Source: a virus. From it: 40,932 nt of DNA. A model generated the notes under the pieces. The model was not told where the DNA came from. It did not search any database and saw only the letters and a list, made by a program, of their open reading frames with translations. Positions within the stretch are counted from its first letter, which is position 1; the number at the start of each line of letters is the position of its first letter. Below, piece by piece: positions 5,185 to 39,192 of the stretch. Where the stretch lies: positions 1-40,932 of IMG/VR virus record IMGVR_UViG_3300020180_000045, one strand, 5' to 3'. Both the position numbers and the translations under genes were made by a program.

Positions 5185-5983
5185 CCTGACGCTGCCCACC
5201 GAGTGGGAGCAGGTAACCCGCTGGCAGGCAATCCGCCTAGGCCGCTACTTCTGGAAATTCCCACTTAGAGGGTATCATTTGGCTAAGCTCCTGGTGGAGC
5301 TTGCGGGTCTGACCAATTCCGCCAACTGGCGCAAAGCTCAACTCATTCAGAAATACGGCACTGCAGAAACAGTGGTACTCTTGGTTGAAGAGGTTAGACA
5401 CCTGCGCTGGGTGGTAGAGGAGCTATGTTTTGAGAAGCCCAAACTCCGCTACATTAATTTAGGCCCTGGCTTTAAGAAGCTGGTCGGCCCAAGCAACGGA
5501 CTGCGCAGCATGACGTACCAGCAATTCTTTGACTACGCAGATCTGCTGTGCAACGAATACATTCTGAACCGAAACCCAAAAGTTCTTGGAGCCTTACTGA
5601 GCTGTTTGTACATGCCACAAGGCACCCGCTTCATTGACGACAAAGCCGCTGAGGCCCGCAGCGCAGTGATCATGCGCGCCGTTTCACAAGGTGAACAGCA
5701 TGCTGCCTTAAACGACTTTTTGGCCATGCGGCGTTGGCTGTTTACGCACACCGATTTTGCGGTTTTGGCTGACTTTGATCAGAACGCGGACCAGGATACG
5801 CCTAAGAGCCCGGTGCGCTTCAGCGATGCGGTTTTTGCCCTTGCTAAAGAAGACGTGACGCAAATGAGCCAGGTACGCAACACACCGCTGTGGGACATCC
5901 TGGAGGGGCTGAGCAGTGCTCACCGAAAGGCGCTGTTGGCCAAGGCGAACCAGGTATTTAAACCCAGCGGCCATGCCCATTAA
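5165..5983 (+). CDS. Unknown phage protein
   Basis: This 272-residue, mainly helical soluble protein begins with a Trp-rich segment (TEWEQVTRWQAIRLGRYFW). A central 'YQQFFDYADLLCNEYI' stretch and a C-terminal helical domain follow. No catalytic motif or membrane segment is seen and no family is recognised. ATG 5165 is chosen because the upstream in-frame extension (from 5054) lies inside the DnaA-like gene and is Cys-rich. The extension contains CPCLSCRYC, so a zinc-finger N-terminus cannot be fully excluded. It ends 11 bp inside the HNH gene. Function unknown. Confidence 0.6.
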   Translation: MTLKHVDLTLPTEWEQVTRWQAIRLGRYFWKFPLRGYHLAKLLVELAGLTNSANWRKAQLIQKYGTAETVVLLVEEVRHLRWVVEELCFEKPKLRYINLGPGFKKLVGPSNGLRSMTYQQFFDYADLLCNEYILNRNPKVLGALLSCLYMPQGTRFIDDKAAEARSAVIMRAVSQGEQHAALNDFLAMRRWLFTHTDFAVLADFDQNADQDTPKSPVRFSDAVFALAKEDVTQMSQVRNTPLWDILEGLSSAHRKALLAKANQVFKPSGHAH

Positions 5984-8405: not shown

Positions 8406-8542
8406 GCCGATAACGGACGATTATTGCCGCAGTTGCGGAATTAACAGCACAAATGTTTCACTTTAAAACAAAATTATATGAAAAGCACAAATGTTCAACC
8501 AACCACTAAGCCCGCAATTGTCCGCAATAATGTGTTAGCGGC
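8406..8542 (+). repeat. attC-like imperfect inverted repeat 1
   Basis: Left arm 8406-8438 and right arm 8512-8542 pair almost throughout. GCCG[A]TAAC pairs with GTTA[G]CGGC, followed by an ATTATTG/CAATAAT stem and an inner GCGG/CCGC end, with two small bulges. The total length of 137 bp is within the range of known attC sites. The right arm lies inside the coding sequence that starts at 8478. Confidence 0.6.
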
Positions 8543-8822
8543 TGATTTCATCTCGGAAAAATTTTCTAAACAAGTGGATTTAATGTTTGAAAAACTGGGA
8601 ACTGAAATATTTGATAAAAGACTCGTAATTAAATACACCAAAGTTTATTACGTAAAAATGGATTTAGAAAGTGGAATAGAATTATGGGCTATTACAAAGG
8701 ATAGATTGGATTACTTCCATTCTTTTTTATGGGCATACATTGCAATAATTAACCCGGCAGACGAAAAGTCTGTCAAACTTTTTAAAATTGTAGATGAGGC
8801 ACTTTGTAAAATTTGCAGCTAA
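8478..8822 (+). CDS. Cassette 1: unknown small protein
   Basis: This 114-residue protein has an N-terminal leader (residues 1-21) encoded inside attC-like site 1. The stop TAA (8820-8822) is part of the GCTAAC core of site 2. The body is mixed alpha/beta with aromatic-rich KVYYVKMDLESGIELWAITKDRLDYFHSFLW and a helical C-terminus. There is no catalytic motif or recognised family. Codon use is AT-rich compared with phage structural genes. The AAATTATATG leader lacks a Shine-Dalgarno sequence, as usual for Bacteroidetes. Phage defence or counter-defence is a reasonable guess for a cassette gene but not shown. Confidence 0.6.
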   Translation: MKSTNVQPTTKPAIVRNNVLAADFISEKFSKQVDLMFEKLGTEIFDKRLVIKYTKVYYVKMDLESGIELWAITKDRLDYFHSFLWAYIAIINPADEKSVKLFKIVDEALCKICS

Positions 8823-8933
8823 CAGAAGGGCGGGATTAACAACTAAAAATTTAATTATGAGAACAGAACTTAATAATAACGAAAAACTTTCAACGGAGCA
8901 GGAAACCCCGCCTATTGCAAATGTGCCGTTAGC
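8818..8933 (+). repeat. attC-like imperfect inverted repeat 2
   Basis: Left arm 8818-8837 starts with GCTAAC. Right arm 8904-8933 ends with GTTAGC. The inner stem pairs GGGCGGGATT with AACCCCGCC plus adjoining bases. The right arm is about 10 nt longer than the left, so this is the weakest of the five in symmetry. Length 116 bp. Confidence 0.5.
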
Positions 8934-9465
8934 AGAAGGTTTTATTATCGCAAAAGCTTACGAAATTGACTTAGATAAACTTGATGAAGGGTATTTATCT
9001 GATACAATTAGCTGCCACGCTAAAAATGCAAACAAGGCAAAATCAAAGCTTTTAAAAATAGTAAGATACGATAATTGGAAATTGAAATATTCAGGTCAAG
9101 AATTAACATACTTAAATATTCCTATAAAACGCAGAAAATCATATGATAAAGTAGGTTTTGAAGGAAAAGATGTTTTGTATTTTCAAATTGAAAGTATCAA
9201 AGATGAACGAAACAGAATTTCTAAACTTAATGAAATTCAAAACAATCCAAACATAAGATTTTGCTATATAATTAAAGGTAGTTATTATAGACCAAATCAT
9301 TGCGGATATACTTCATTAAGATTTGAAGCAGGGATATACCCCAAAGATGAAGCTGTATCACACGCAAAATCTGTTCGTGAAATCCGTCTTGAATGGATAG
9401 ATACGGAAGAACACAATAAAATGATAAACGAAAAGATTGCAGAACTTCAAGGGCGGTTGCTCTAA
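8857..9465 (+). CDS. Cassette 2: unknown protein
   Basis: This 202-residue protein starts at ATG 8857 inside attC-like site 2, so about 25 residues of leader (ending at PIANVPLA) belong to the site. The body is Lys-rich. A conserved-looking C-terminal block (about residues 145-190) reads GSYYRPNHCGYTSLRFEAGIYP followed by KDEAVSHAK, which I recognise as a pattern of uncharacterised Bacteroidetes proteins but cannot name. No nuclease or transmembrane signature is seen. A longer in-frame start at 8794 would lie in the previous cassette gene and is rejected. The stop is 7 nt before the next core. Confidence 0.6.
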   Translation: MRTELNNNEKLSTEQETPPIANVPLAEGFIIAKAYEIDLDKLDEGYLSDTISCHAKNANKAKSKLLKIVRYDNWKLKYSGQELTYLNIPIKRRKSYDKVGFEGKDVLYFQIESIKDERNRISKLNEIQNNPNIRFCYIIKGSYYRPNHCGYTSLRFEAGIYPKDEAVSHAKSVREIRLEWIDTEEHNKMINEKIAELQGRLL

Positions 9466-9472
9466 ACTTTCT

Positions 9473-9601
9473 GCTAACGGGTTGCGGCTACCAGAAGGTC
9501 GGGATTTTAACCACAAAATTAATATGAAAAACAAAATTATGAATACAGAAAAAACTTCATTAGAACCACAAAGCCCCGCCTTTTTGGTAGGTGCTGTTAG
9601 C
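9473..9601 (+). repeat. attC-like imperfect inverted repeat 3
   Basis: Left arm 9473-9508 and right arm 9571-9601. Outer GCTAAC/GTTAGC is followed by an unpaired spacer (about 9 nt left, GTGCT right). A stem CTACC/GGTAG continues through AAGG and CGGG/CCCG. The right spacer GTGCT is identical in site 5. Length 129 bp. The geometry of core, unpaired central spacer and bulged stem is the most attC-like of the set. Confidence 0.65.
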
Positions 9602-9787
9602 GGTAATTTTATAACTGTAGTTGCTTTAAAACGGCTTATTAAAAAGTGGAGTGACGATGCTAAAAAAATCGAGCCGCTGACAAATAAAAAAGAAACAAAA
9701 CATCAAAGGCAGGTCGCTAACCACTTTTTAATCATGCTATCGAAATGTATAGAGGATGTTGAATTGGAATTGAAAAATTACCGCTAA
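9524..9787 (+). CDS. Cassette 3: unknown small protein
   Basis: This 87-residue protein (82 if ATG 9539 is used) has its start and leader inside site 3. The leader ends in LVGAVSG, where the GTTAGC core is read as Val-Ser. The remainder is a basic helical protein with a Lys/Arg-rich middle and a C-terminal amphipathic helix. The stop (9785-9787) is part of the GCTAAC of site 4. There is no recognised family. AT-rich codon use. Confidence 0.55.
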   Translation: MKNKIMNTEKTSLEPQSPAFLVGAVSGNFITVVALKRLIKKWSDDAKKIEPLTNKKETKHQRQVANHFLIMLSKCIEDVELELKNYR

Positions 9788-9877
9788 CGTTTAGGCTAAG
9801 ATTAGTAGCCTAAGTAATGAACCAATCAATTAACAACAAAGCTCTATTAGGCTATTAATTTTAGCCTTTGTTATAGG
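9783..9877 (+). repeat. attC-like imperfect inverted repeat 4
   Basis: Left arm 9783-9814 and right arm 9844-9877. The outer pair is TAAC/GTTA. The long inner stem pairs AGGCTAAGATTAGTAGCCTA with its near complement in the right arm. Each arm is itself a small hairpin (AGGCTA/TAGCCT). At 95 bp it is the shortest site and the only one that lies wholly outside the following gene. Confidence 0.65.
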
Positions 9878-9895
9878 GCGTTTATTATAATAATT

Positions 9896-10144
9896 ATGTC
9901 ACAAGTACAACAAGAAGCGAAAAAAGAAGCCACTAAAATAATGAAAAAACACTTACATTATATTAGCGGTATACCCGAAGGGCTAATTTTAATTTTTCAT
10001 AAAGGAGATAGTCATGTTGAAACTGCAAGAAAATGTTCAATTGAAACGGTAAAAGAATTGTTACGGGAACATAGTTGCGAAACGCTACTGGATGAAAGGT
10101 GGGCGTTTTGGTCTCAAGTTGAGATAGAGCTTAATGCCCTATAA
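9896..10144 (+). CDS. Cassette 4: unknown small protein
   Basis: This 82-residue protein starts 18 nt after attC-like site 4 and is the only array gene without an attC-encoded leader. The N-terminus is Lys/Glu-rich and helical; the centre has GIPEGLILIFHKGD, and a Trp-containing helix closes the protein. The stop (10142-10144) lies in the TATAAC core of site 5. No family is recognised. Confidence 0.55.
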   Translation: MSQVQQEAKKEATKIMKKHLHYISGIPEGLILIFHKGDSHVETARKCSIETVKELLREHSCETLLDERWAFWSQVEIELNAL

Positions 10145-10265
10145 CGTTTTGGAGCTAAACGAGGTGGCGTATTCCACTAAACTTAATTAGAAAAAGAAAT
10201 TATGAGTGAAGAAAAAAGATTATCAGAAAATGAAAATACGCCATCTTGTTTAGGTGCTGTTAGTG
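10139..10265 (+). repeat. attC-like imperfect inverted repeat 5
   Basis: Left arm 10139-10174 and right arm 10235-10265. The TAAC/GTTA core is followed by an unpaired spacer (left about 9 nt, right GTGCT). A stem then pairs CTAAACGAGGTGGCGTATT with its partner at 17 of 19 positions. Length 127 bp. The right arm is coding for the next gene. Confidence 0.7.
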
Positions 10266-10468
10266 GCAGTACTTTTCAGAAGCAAGAAGCTTTTAGAAGG
10301 ATGCAGGAAGGACAAAAAGTTACACACAAATCAATGATGCCAAATGAATATTTGCACATCCAAGAGGGTAGTAAAGTACTAACAGAAGATGCCTTTGATT
10401 TCACGACAAGTTTTTGGTTTAGAAATATAGCATATTATGAATATGGTTGGTCGCAGTATTGCCACTAA
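10202..10468 (+). CDS. Cassette 5: Tad2/DUF2829-like small protein (tentative)
   Basis: This 88-residue protein has a leader (residues 1-21, ending CLGAVSG) inside attC-like site 5. The body has the layout of small DUF2829-like proteins: an EAFRRMQEGQKVTHK helix and strand, a NEYLHIQEGSKVLTED hairpin, FWFRN, and a terminal GWSQY. Some DUF2829 members (Tad2) are phage anti-Thoeris proteins that sequester the cyclic nucleotide signal. The match is by pattern from memory and only moderate. The stop (10466-10468) is in the ACTAAC core at the array's right edge. Confidence 0.45.
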   Translation: MSEEKRLSENENTPSCLGAVSGSTFQKQEAFRRMQEGQKVTHKSMMPNEYLHIQEGSKVLTEDAFDFTTSFWFRNIAYYEYGWSQYCH

Positions 10469-10613
10469 CACCCGGATAAAGGAACCTTTGTTGCGCTTTA
10501 ACATGTTAAAGCGCAAGTCCAAAGAAAACCACTTTGCAATTTTAGGAAAGGATCAAGCACAAACCGCTGCCGGCATAGTAGAGATTGCCAGGCAATTTTT
10601 TCTCAAACCTTAA
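10443..10613 (+). CDS. Possible small gene or 3' remnant at array edge
   Basis: An open frame of 56 residues runs from ATG 10443 (or 36 residues from ATG 10503). It crosses the right boundary of the cassette array. The part after 10480 reads as plausible coding sequence (RKSKENHFAILGKDQAQTAA, then a hydrophobic helix). It may be the 3' end of a phage gene interrupted by the array, or a small independent gene from 10503. No family is recognised. Confidence 0.3.
   Translation: MVGRSIATNTRIKEPLLRFNMLKRKSKENHFAILGKDQAQTAAGIVEIARQFFLKP
10463..10482 (+). repeat. Sixth TAAC core at right edge of array
   Basis: ACTAAC at 10464-10469 ends cassette 5. No long right arm pairs with it. A short AAAGG/CCTTT stem at 10478-10489 leads to GTTGC, which could be a minimal or degraded site. 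This marks the right limit of the AT-rich cassette region. Confidence 0.35.
10491..10516. repeat. Perfect 26-bp palindrome
   Basis: The sequence from 10491 to 10516 equals its own reverse complement. It starts TTGCGCTTTAAC, is centred on ACATGT, and ends GTTAAAGCGCAA. It lies just past the cassette array. It could be a dimeric protein site or an mRNA hairpin, or a core pair (TTTAAC/GTTAAA) left after loss of an attC-like stem. Confidence 0.7.
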
Positions 10614-15124: not shown

Positions 15125-15382
15125 ATGACAAATACTAAAGTAGAAAAGGCAGCCGCATCGGCCGTCTGGGCAGAAGTAAGGGCTGAGGCAGTAGCGGCAG
15201 TAAGGGCTGCAGCAGAAGCTGCATATTACGCAGCAGCGGCAGCGACAAGGGCTATGGCAGCAACTCAAACAGAAGCGGCGGCCGCCTGGGCAGAAGCAGG
15301 GGCCGCCGCAGCAGAGTCAGCAATGTCCGCAGCAGCGGCTGCGAAGGCTGCAAAAGCGGCAGCAAGGGCCGCGGCTAGATAA
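15125..15382 (+). CDS. Ala-rich helical protein 1
   Basis: Roughly half of this 85-residue protein is alanine, with regularly spaced Glu, Arg, Lys and Trp. It should form a long, mostly amphipathic alpha-helix. There is no signal peptide or family. The next gene has the same style, and each is followed by the same hairpin unit, so the two probably arose by duplication. Ala-rich repeats of this kind occur in some uncharacterised immunity-like proteins; this is only a resemblance. GC-rich Ala codons could also make such an open frame by chance, but a clean start, stop and a paralogue argue for a gene. Confidence 0.55.
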   Translation: MTNTKVEKAAASAVWAEVRAEAVAAVRAAAEAAYYAAAAATRAMAATQTEAAAAWAEAGAAAAESAMSAAAAAKAAKAAARAAAR

Positions 15383-15388
15383 CCAATT

Positions 15389-15419
15389 CCAACCCCGCTT
15401 GCACATCGCAAGCGGGCAC
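15389..15419 (+). repeat. Duplicated hairpin unit, copy A
   Basis: CCCGCTTGC, loop ACATC, GCAAGCGGG (15394-15416) forms a perfect 9-bp stem in a 31-bp unit. The unit is identical to that at 15729-15759. CAA/CCA-rich, probably unstructured sequence flanks it up to the next ATG. There is no T run, so it is unlikely to be an intrinsic terminator. Confidence 0.8.
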
Positions 15420-15438
15420 AAACCAACCAAACCAACAA

Positions 15439-15723
15439 ATGGACAACAATTGCAACAAGGAAGAAGCACCTGCGGTAATAGCCGCAGAAGCCGCAAGAGA
15501 TGCGCTGAAGGAGGCGCAGGATGCTTGGATGTCAGGATGGGGATCGGCAGCATGGGTAGCAGCTGCAAATTCTGCTTTTTCATGGGCCGCAGCGGGAGCT
15601 GCATGGTCTGCTGCGGCAGTGGGTGAATTTAAAGCCGCAGAAGAGTGGGCCGCTTTGGCTCAAACAGCTGAGACGGAAGCTGCGACAGCAGCGGAATCCG
15701 CAGCACGGGCCACAGTAAGATAA
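15439..15723 (+). CDS. Ala- and Trp-rich helical protein 2
   Basis: This 94-residue protein is rich in Ala with Trp at semi-regular intervals (AWMSGWGSAAWVAAANSAFSW), and Glu/Arg on the other helix faces. It follows the Ala-rich protein 1 with an identical intergenic hairpin before and after. The Trp content could allow membrane association or helix packing. No family is recognised. Confidence 0.55.
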   Translation: MDNNCNKEEAPAVIAAEAARDALKEAQDAWMSGWGSAAWVAAANSAFSWAAAGAAWSAAAVGEFKAAEEWAALAQTAETEAATAAESAARATVR

Positions 15724-38564: not shown

Positions 38565-39192
38565 AGGCCAACCGCAGACAAGCATGGAGCGCTATGCTGC
38601 CTACCTGCTCAATCCGGATGAGGATCATCACAGCTTAACAGATGAGGAGCTGAAGCACCTCAATAAGCTGGACAAGGTAGACAACCTGATCCGCAGCTAC
38701 GGCCGCATGTTGGACGTCATCAGCTTTGTCTGCAAGCTTGACGGCGAAGACAAACCCATGAGCCGCTATCGTGCAGAACATCTCATCCGGGAAGCACAGG
38801 ACTTGTTCGGCAGCGTCAACACGATAAACAAGCCTTATTGGCGCACCGTGTTACTGGAGAAGGCTATGGAGGTGTTTAACCTGGCCATCAAAGCAAACGA
38901 CTTTAGCGCTGCCGGCAACGCGCTAATGCATGCGGCCAAATTCCTGCGCCTGGATCAAGCCGATGACACCGAAGTGGCAGAAACAACTGCTACTACTTAC
39001 GTCATGGTCATTAAGGCTGGCGACAAACAAACCAGCCTGGATCTGACCAACATCGGCTACCTCAGCGCTAAACACCGCAACGAGCTGGTGCAGGCCGCTC
39101 AGGAGCAGGCAATGGATATTGAATGGGAAGAAATAGAAAAAGGCACTTTGCCGCCTGCCGCCAGCAATGACCACCAAGCCCCTTCGCCTTAA
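38521..39192 (+). CDS. Putative small terminase subunit
   Basis: This 223-residue protein has a helical central region (YRAEHLIREAQDLFGSVNT and EKAMEVFNLAIKANDFSAAGNALMHAAKFL) and an acidic end. Its position directly before the large terminase, with a 26-bp overlap, fits a small terminase subunit that recognises the packaging site. No HTH is clearly seen. Confidence 0.6.
   Translation: MPKQSYKQQEARLLKGQPQTSMERYAAYLLNPDEDHHSLTDEELKHLNKLDKVDNLIRSYGRMLDVISFVCKLDGEDKPMSRYRAEHLIREAQDLFGSVNTINKPYWRTVLLEKAMEVFNLAIKANDFSAAGNALMHAAKFLRLDQADDTEVAETTATTYVMVIKAGDKQTSLDLTNIGYLSAKHRNELVQAAQEQAMDIEWEEIEKGTLPPAASNDHQAPSP

Follow-up and report, generated by a model that had tools for sequence, protein, structure and literature searches.

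The window analysed here is the whole of IMG/VR virus record IMGVR_UViG_3300020180_000045 (40,932 nt). On its + strand lie five attC-like inverted-repeat sites with TAAC/GTTA ends, which separate five unrelated small genes on the same strand (Table 1); this description, first given in an earlier note, is borne out by a covariance model (R1) and by a simpler structural scan. In a Pfam scan, none of the cassette proteins matches a family above cut-off, and a PDB search with gene 5 gives no match. A sixth TAAC closes the array. The limits of the moving units in Table 1 are predictions based on the crossover points determined for related Flavobacterium phages.

Table 1 Features of the cassette array in the window.
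Feature	Position	Strand	Evidence and remarks
attC-like site 1, TAAC ggacg ATTATTG... ...CAATAAT gt GTTA	8411..8537	+	R1 69.9 bits, E 5.3e-14; structural scan; ssDNA z -2.1
Start codon of gene 1, in the loop of site 1	ATG 8478	+	
Gene 1, 114 aa	8478..8822	+	ORF list; stop TAA is the TAA of the site 2 TAAC; no Pfam family above cut-off, no PHROG family
attC-like site 2, decayed	8820..8931	+	R1 37.8 bits; aligned to intact copy in phage contig L107
Start codon of gene 2, in site 2	ATG 8857	+	Site encodes leader MRTELNNNEKLSTEQETPPIANV
Gene 2, 202 aa	8857..9465	+	phrog_35347 (no assigned function)
attC-like site 3, includes start of gene 3	9475..9599	+	R1 79.5 bits, E 3e-16
Gene 3, 87 aa from ATG 9524 or 82 aa from ATG 9539	9524..9787	+	Stop in site 4 TAAC
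attC-like site 4, 89 nt, gene start outside	9785..9873	+	R1 38.0 bits, E 1.5e-6
Gene 4, 82 aa	9896..10144	+	Stop codon within site 5 TAAC
attC-like site 5, includes ATG 10202 of gene 5	10142..10262	+	R1 59.9 bits, E 1.2e-11; ssDNA z -4.9
Gene 5, 88 aa	10202..10468	+	phrog_3474 (no assigned function); stop codon within terminal TAAC
3' boundary of array, TAAC without matching hairpin, then ACCCGGAT...	10466..10469	+	
Predicted moving units 1 to 5, TAA^C to TAA^C	8414-8822, 8823-9477, 9478-9787, 9788-10144, 10145-10468	+	

R1 is trained on 32 sites of other records, the window sites being left out. Over the 40.9 kb, a search with R1 recovers exactly the five window sites, all on the + strand (38-80 bits, E 1.7e-6 to 3e-16); the next-best match scores 16.5 bits (E 0.17). 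The R1 alignment contains 119 both-sided compensatory cells, compared with 44 +/- 5 in shuffles, and none of the slid registers comes near the covariation of the true register. The structural scan of viral and bacterial loci gives 401 matches, compared with 3 after shuffling of these loci. The sites have the inverted R boxes, L stem, and unpaired spacers of attC arrays, and their structure is kept while their sequence is not, consistent with the observation that stem sequences differ but geometry and core are retained. The spacer GTGCT ahead of GTTA is indeed the same in the third and fifth sites. The arms of site 4 are 21 nt long and 90% complementary. A search of the region against Rfam returns chance matches only and no attC match.

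The assignment to attC needs qualification. All five sites are detected by R1, but one is decayed, the stems carry an extra base on the crossover arm, and the genes are flipped with respect to attC polarity. Four of the five sites are intact. In comparison with a near-identical site in L107, the site at 8820-8931 has lost ~14 nt of its 5' inner arm, and most of its L-stem positions are deleted in the R1 alignment. When folded as single-stranded DNA, + strand, four of the five sites beat shuffles (z -1.9 to -4.9), but the damaged site does not (z -0.3). The conserved extra stem base is present on the crossover arm only in 30/32 sites and on the other arm only in 0/32. In classical attC, the extrahelical bases are on the R''-L'' arm, opposite the crossover arm (PMC2727003); the sites described here have the extra base on the reverse arm.

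The two ends of each window gene body match one another as inverted repeats at 9.6/12 positions on average, compared with 5.4/12 between different bodies, and the true pairing ranks first of 120. Such complementarity is predicted by a circular cassette with a single attC. Alternatively, the genes might be ordinary phage genes and the hairpins between them might act as RNA, either as intrinsic terminators or as leaders that control translation. Translation is likely to be affected to some degree, since the start region of the next gene lies within most of the hairpins, and the region holds four terminator-like matches where 1.8 are expected. However, the sites as a class have no T-run after them, the fixed TAAC/GTTA stem geometry and the complementarity between ends of the same gene are left unexplained, and the gain and loss of related units fall precisely at TAAC. 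Therefore, we consider an RNA-level origin highly improbable. The counter-reading offered in the earlier note, plain terminators between non-mobile genes, fails on the lack of T-runs and on the precise gain and loss of units in related phages.

Fourteen Flavobacterium phage isolates carry the same kind of sites and provide 22 distinct junctions of cassette gain or loss. At 21 of the 22, the stretch shared by the compared sequences contains TAAC, the 5' end of the site (chance product ~1e-32); the remaining junction, assigned by eye, is TAACGT. The shared stretch is 4-8 nt long in most cases, and all junctions are compatible with a cut between A and C of the R box (TAA^C). At array ends, the change point is constant though the sequences past TAAC are unrelated. 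The moving unit is a hairpin together with the gene downstream of it: the upstream hairpin is kept with the gene body while the downstream hairpin varies in 64 pairs, compared with 12 of the opposite kind. One cassette that is internal to the array of lillamy9-1 is the end cassette in lillamy9-7. The methyltransferases of the cassette region vary among these phages, and poor plating on one host has been linked to the absence of a methyltransferase by the authors of the Flavobacterium phage study (PMC7077304).

These junctions also bear on the possibility that mosaic phages recombine, homologously or illegitimately, at short conserved hairpins and that no dedicated recombinase is involved. Sharing of sequence between the 5' site arms of different cassettes would allow this, and 30 of the 38 phage records with arrays lack a tyrosine recombinase. 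But the shared stretches are mostly as short as 4-8 nt and contain TAAC, the change point holds even where the sequence beyond the array end is unrelated, and in chromosomes the same sites have recombinase genes closely linked to them. Recombination of this kind is therefore an improbable source of the arrays.

Gain and loss are not seen in the window itself because no close relative of its phage is found: neither the 549-aa neighbour gene, used as bait in IMG/VR, nor window genes 1 and 5 retrieve any. Window gene 2 nevertheless offers a comparison. Its body has a homologue in phage contig L106 (65% aa) that is preceded by a different hairpin, and its hairpin and leader precede another gene in L107 and in a further contig, L108. 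This combination requires an exchange at the GTTA end, so recombination is not strictly one-sided. A seemingly clean leader swap at GTTA between the hemulen and mumin phages is a weaker case, as the loop is shared but both stem arms differ.

In integron cassettes, attC lies at the 3' end of the gene. The viral loci do not have this arrangement: at 65 loci, all scored genes lie downstream of the attC-type hairpin (236 inverted to 0), whereas Bacteroidota chromosomal loci follow the canonical gene-then-attC order (40 canonical to 1). The phage cassettes are therefore inverted. Their start codon usually lies inside attC, and the next R box usually supplies its TAA as their stop. A difference in crossover end between phage and host sites was also considered and dropped, since in chromosomal arrays it is the genes that are flipped and not the sites.

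As the earlier note had stated, the window encodes no integron integrase. No other tyrosine recombinase is found in it either; TIGR02249 finds no match in the record, and the same search is positive in 14/14 control genomes. In chromosomes, the sites are linked to a XerA/IntI-like tyrosine recombinase without the IntI-specific insert. At 25 of 28 loci of this family, sites lie within ~9 kb; 76 of these 77 recombinase-near sites are downstream of the recombinase, and all have cassettes in its direction. The family skips TIGR02249 positions 183-237 and falls below the model cut-off. Its best sequence matches are XerA/XerC/XerD (PDB 4a8e, 5hxy; NCBIfam NF040815), from which it differs in adjoining cassette arrays and, in its best-scoring members, in an extra N-terminal region of ~70-100 residues. 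In four phage contigs, including a near-identical pair, a related recombinase stands beside the array 3' end. Ahead of some phage recombinases stands TAACTATTATATG or TAACTAATATATTACG, which resemble TAACTACAATATTACATG, the constant boundary of the Flavobacterium phages. The 3' boundary of the window array bears no likeness to this attI-like boundary.

The nature of the linked enzyme argues against two further explanations. The array could be a classical one, acquired from Proteobacteria for example and worked by an IntI with the IntI-specific domain. In accordance, IntI1 recombined 5/6 phage attC sites in the tests described in PMC9892861, a Polaribacter phage being among the sources. However, the sites are Bacteroidota-wide, the linked recombinase misses ~40 residues of the IntI model, and the stems have their extra base on the arm opposite to the classical one, so we regard a classical IntI as unlikely. 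HUH enzymes typically cut at a fixed tetranucleotide next to the foot of a hairpin, as would be the case at TAAC, and single-strand transposition of the IS200/IS605 or IS91 type could thus be invoked. But both ends carry inverted R boxes together with a second paired L box, the chromosomal gene linked to the sites is a tyrosine recombinase, and the window proteins scanned include no HUH transposase family. Such transposition is extremely improbable.

The Bacteroidota phage of the window thus very probably carries an integron-type cassette array that has no integrase of its own, each unit comprising an attC-type hairpin and one gene and being mobilised in trans. The hairpin would form on the single-stranded + strand, in vivo as in our predictions, and a tyrosine recombinase would exchange strands at TAA^C of the R box, so that units would be excised as circles and inserted singly. 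With attC placed upstream of the phage gene, usually supplying the start codon and first residues, and with the stop usually in the next R box, a unit would arrive as a gene translatable in the phage transcription direction. The earlier note had the recombinase supplied in trans by the host. Action in trans is probable, but the enzyme is most likely of the XerA/IntI-like family rather than a classical IntI, and may come from a co-infecting phage as well as from the host. Members of this family adjoin such sites both in chromosomes of Bacteroidota and in a small number of phages. The window array would still be mobile. Counted against this proposal are the damaged site 2, the unlike 3' boundary, the extra stem base on the crossover arm, and the exchange at the GTTA end.

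With less assurance, we lean towards a broader reading, in which Bacteroidota have a widespread cassette system of their own together with a separate phage pool of inverted genes, attC serving as translation start and the R box as stop, and in which the window is a member of that pool. Standard integron detection requires the IntI-specific insert. In this reading, standard searches would miss the system owing to a recombinase without the IntI domain and to the mirror-image asymmetry of attC. The IntegronFinder 2.0 survey lists one complete integron in Bacteroidetes proper, in Salinibacter ruber, and earlier work had found only In0 (PMC9024848); in the same phylum, we find R1 sites in 136 of 296 sampled genomes (46%), compared with 2/149 in a control phylum. 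Sedentary chromosomal integrons of the Vibrio, Xanthomonas, and Treponema types share head-to-tail cassettes, folded sites with R and L boxes, crossover at the R box, and a recombinase at one array end. The present system differs from them in a recombinase without the IntI insert and with an N-terminal extension in its best-scoring members, in the extra base on the opposite arm, and in the inverted phage genes.

If this is right, a phylum credited by surveys with almost no integrons would commonly shuffle genes in the integron manner, its phages would exchange small genes and DNA methyltransferases as cassettes, and one recombination site would serve two gene orientations, keeping host and phage cassette pools apart. 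The linked recombinase family is a directly testable candidate, and the Flavobacterium phage isolates with sequenced arrays are a natural experiment.

The earlier note had classified the array as a CALIN-type element in a phage. The kind is right, and the phage is of a tailed Bacteroidota type, but phage-borne CALINs, with some sites recombined by IntI1, had already been published (Qi et al. 2023, PMC9892861). The arrays described there likewise have attC-bounded cassettes without an integrase and DNA methyltransferase cargo, and include the Bacteroidota phage Polaribacter P12002L. The passages of that report on phage CALINs mention neither systematic gene inversion nor a start codon within attC, and the names Flavobacterium and Bacteroidetes are absent from them; the TAAC junctions, the inverted phage genes, and the Bacteroidota-wide sites beside an insert-less recombinase go beyond those passages. 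P12002L has no R1 sites at E<=1; next to a methyltransferase, however, it carries one short site (38879-38936) whose geometry is the same.

Each of the five tandem genes at window positions 8411-10469 stands behind a hairpin, as held by the earlier note, which had described five TAAC/GTTA inverted repeats between five co-oriented genes. The hairpin consists, in order, of TAAC, a spacer, an L arm, a loop, an L arm, a short spacer, and GTTA. A structural scan calibrated on shuffled sequence yields 401 matches in related loci versus 3 in shuffles. In an alignment of 32 diverse sites drawn from other phages and bacterial contigs, with the structure given by hand for the pair counts, there are 119 compensatory cells versus 44 ± 5 after shuffling. 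The covariation score is 0.44 versus 0.13 for shuffled sequence, and slid registers all score far lower. The note had also proposed an attC covariance search and single-stranded DNA folding. R1, the covariance model of those 32 sites, trained without the window, recovers all five window sites and no other noteworthy match (its E-values are rough), and of the two strands, the + strand, on which recombination would take place, gives the better fold. Site 2 is damaged, having lost about 14 nt of the 5' arm relative to an almost identical site in viral locus L107. In L108, tiny hairpins of 48-49 nt with TAAC/GTTA ends (5238-5285 and 5766-5814) lie near the array end and are possibly minimal sites.

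For every window gene, the bases after the upstream GTTA and before the downstream TAAC form inverted repeats. The ends of the same gene are complementary at 9.6/12 versus 5.4/12 for mismatched pairs, and the true pairing is the best among 120. Judged from sequence, such matching ends are the hallmark of a cassette in which the two R-box (TAAC/GTTA) halves would come together on circularization. The start codon lies within the hairpin in four of the five genes, and the stop codon is the TAA of the next TAAC in four of five. The gene 2 body recurs in L106 behind a different hairpin, and its hairpin and leader recur in L107 and L108 ahead of a different gene, indicating that pieces are reassorted at GTTA too.

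A weak DNA match leads to cultured Flavobacterium phages (Lillamyvirus, Muminvirus, and Hattifnattvirus), whose arrays have 10-15 detected sites each. Comparison of 14 isolates gives 22 distinct gain/loss junctions. TAAC lies within the common junction stretch in 21 of them, and TAACGT is visible by eye in the remaining one. The chance estimate for 21 TAAC junctions under a random-stretch model, about 1e-32, is a guide value only, because related isolates can have common history and the junctions are not all independent. The unit gained or lost is a hairpin with its downstream gene. Over the full set of loci, pairs of similar gene bodies have the upstream hairpin in common and differ in the downstream hairpin, by 64 pairs to 12. 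One cassette differs in position between lillamy9-1 and lillamy9-7; in lillamy9-7 it stands at the invariant array end TTATAAC|TACAATATTACATG. In the methyltransferase cassette of hemulen6-1 and mumin6-1 (L003, L015), the gene and hairpin loop are near-identical and both stem arms differ, which suggests that stem arms turn over fast, in pairs.

A 20-nt site pattern occurs in 64 IMG/VR contigs, whereas bacterial and archaeal genomes totalling 257 Gb yield just 9 stretches with it. R1 at E <= 0.01 matches 136 of 296 Bacteroidota genomes (one sample of the phylum, with some genomes incomplete), many with ten or more matches and a top score of 106 bits. In a control from another phylum, 2 of 149 genomes match, at 38.5 bits or less.

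All scorable viral genes are on the model strand, 3' of their site (236:0; 65 loci including the window). In contrast, chromosomal genes lie on the opposite strand with the site after the gene 3' end, as in canonical integrons (40:1; an earlier count of 23:9 took in four contigs fetched by a phage-type pattern). The phage crossover at the model 5' TAA^C corresponds to the canonical G^TT of attC in the chromosomal reading. The crossover was measured in phages only, and chromosomal sites are assigned the phage polarity on the ground that a single model, used in one orientation, fits the two kinds. On this basis, phage genes are inverted relative to attC. An otherwise canonical array in a Pedobacter chromosome contains phage-type inverted cassettes (L141 15832-16351; L087 4831-5350). 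In addition, a Chitinophagales-binned contig and Flavobacterium phages have a cassette in common (69.5% in the body, 0.89 in the hairpin). There may be some exchange between phage and host cassette pools, but the contig could itself be a prophage.

Chromosomal arrays adjoin a tyrosine recombinase family (L143, L147, and L151) whose members score just under or over the cut-off of the Xer recombinase model NF040815 and under that of the integron-integrase model; relative to the latter model, they lack about 40 residues. At E <= 1e-50, the family is present in 97 of the 296 genomes. R1 sites occur at 25 of 28 loci of the best-scoring members; 76 of these 77 sites lie downstream of the recombinase, and all cassettes run in its direction. 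At least two of the three site-less loci (L195, L206) have the recombinase at a contig end. Among lower-scoring relatives, 6 of 12 have sites in their loci; the limits of the family are thus blurred. In Bacteroidota chromosomes, canonical arrays directly 3' of a tyrosine recombinase lacking the IntI insert are seen at L183-L210 and G041:C21; conventional integron surveys record almost none for the phylum.

No tyrosine recombinase is found in 30 of 38 array-bearing viral records, or in the 40,932-bp window, bearing out the claim of an integrase-free phage array. A related, shorter recombinase adjoins the array 3' end in a small number of phage contigs, which are possible complete phage integrons.

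Recombinases adjoining the 3' end of phage arrays
Feature	Locus	Position	Strand	Remark
Array-end recombinase	L030	176-1021	-	attI-like TAACTAnnATAT motif ahead of gene
Array-end recombinase	L051	10392-11237	-	
Array-end recombinase	L047	10089-10937	-	
Array-end recombinase	L078	3423-4298	-	attI-like TAACTAnnATAT motif ahead of gene

A published paper already describes CALINs (attC arrays without integrase) in phages and their IntI1 activity (PMC9892861). The reading of the window as a CALIN-type element holds as to a phage-borne cassette array without integrase, but fails on three textbook features: the extra stem base is on the other side than in classical attC, the array-linked recombinases lack the IntI domain, and gene orientation differs from canonical cassettes, the last in phages only. 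Therefore, we call the array integron-like, not a plain integron member. A published survey reports few Bacteroidetes integrons (PMC9024848), and the usual detection method needs the IntI domain (PMC9668308). In open-licence PMC main texts, no description of Bacteroidota arrays or of the gene inversion was found, so priority is unproven.

A recombinase provided by the host or a co-infecting phage would cut the folded + strand of attC at TAA^C and join it to another R box. The phage would gain a gene ready for translation, since the start and stop codons would move along with the hairpin. Selection for the direction of phage transcription would then give inverted phage cassettes, a pool separate from that of the host.

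The window is one complete IMG/VR virus record, and no close relatives of its phage were found. Its genes resemble portal, tape-measure, terminase, and helicase/primase genes, and two encode DNA methyltransferases. The closest known portal relatives are mostly from Bacteroidota phages (Polaribacter, Cellulophaga, and Flavobacterium), with two Microcystis phages and two faecal phages also near. At 15125-15723, the window has a tandem pair of small predicted proteins extremely rich in alanine.
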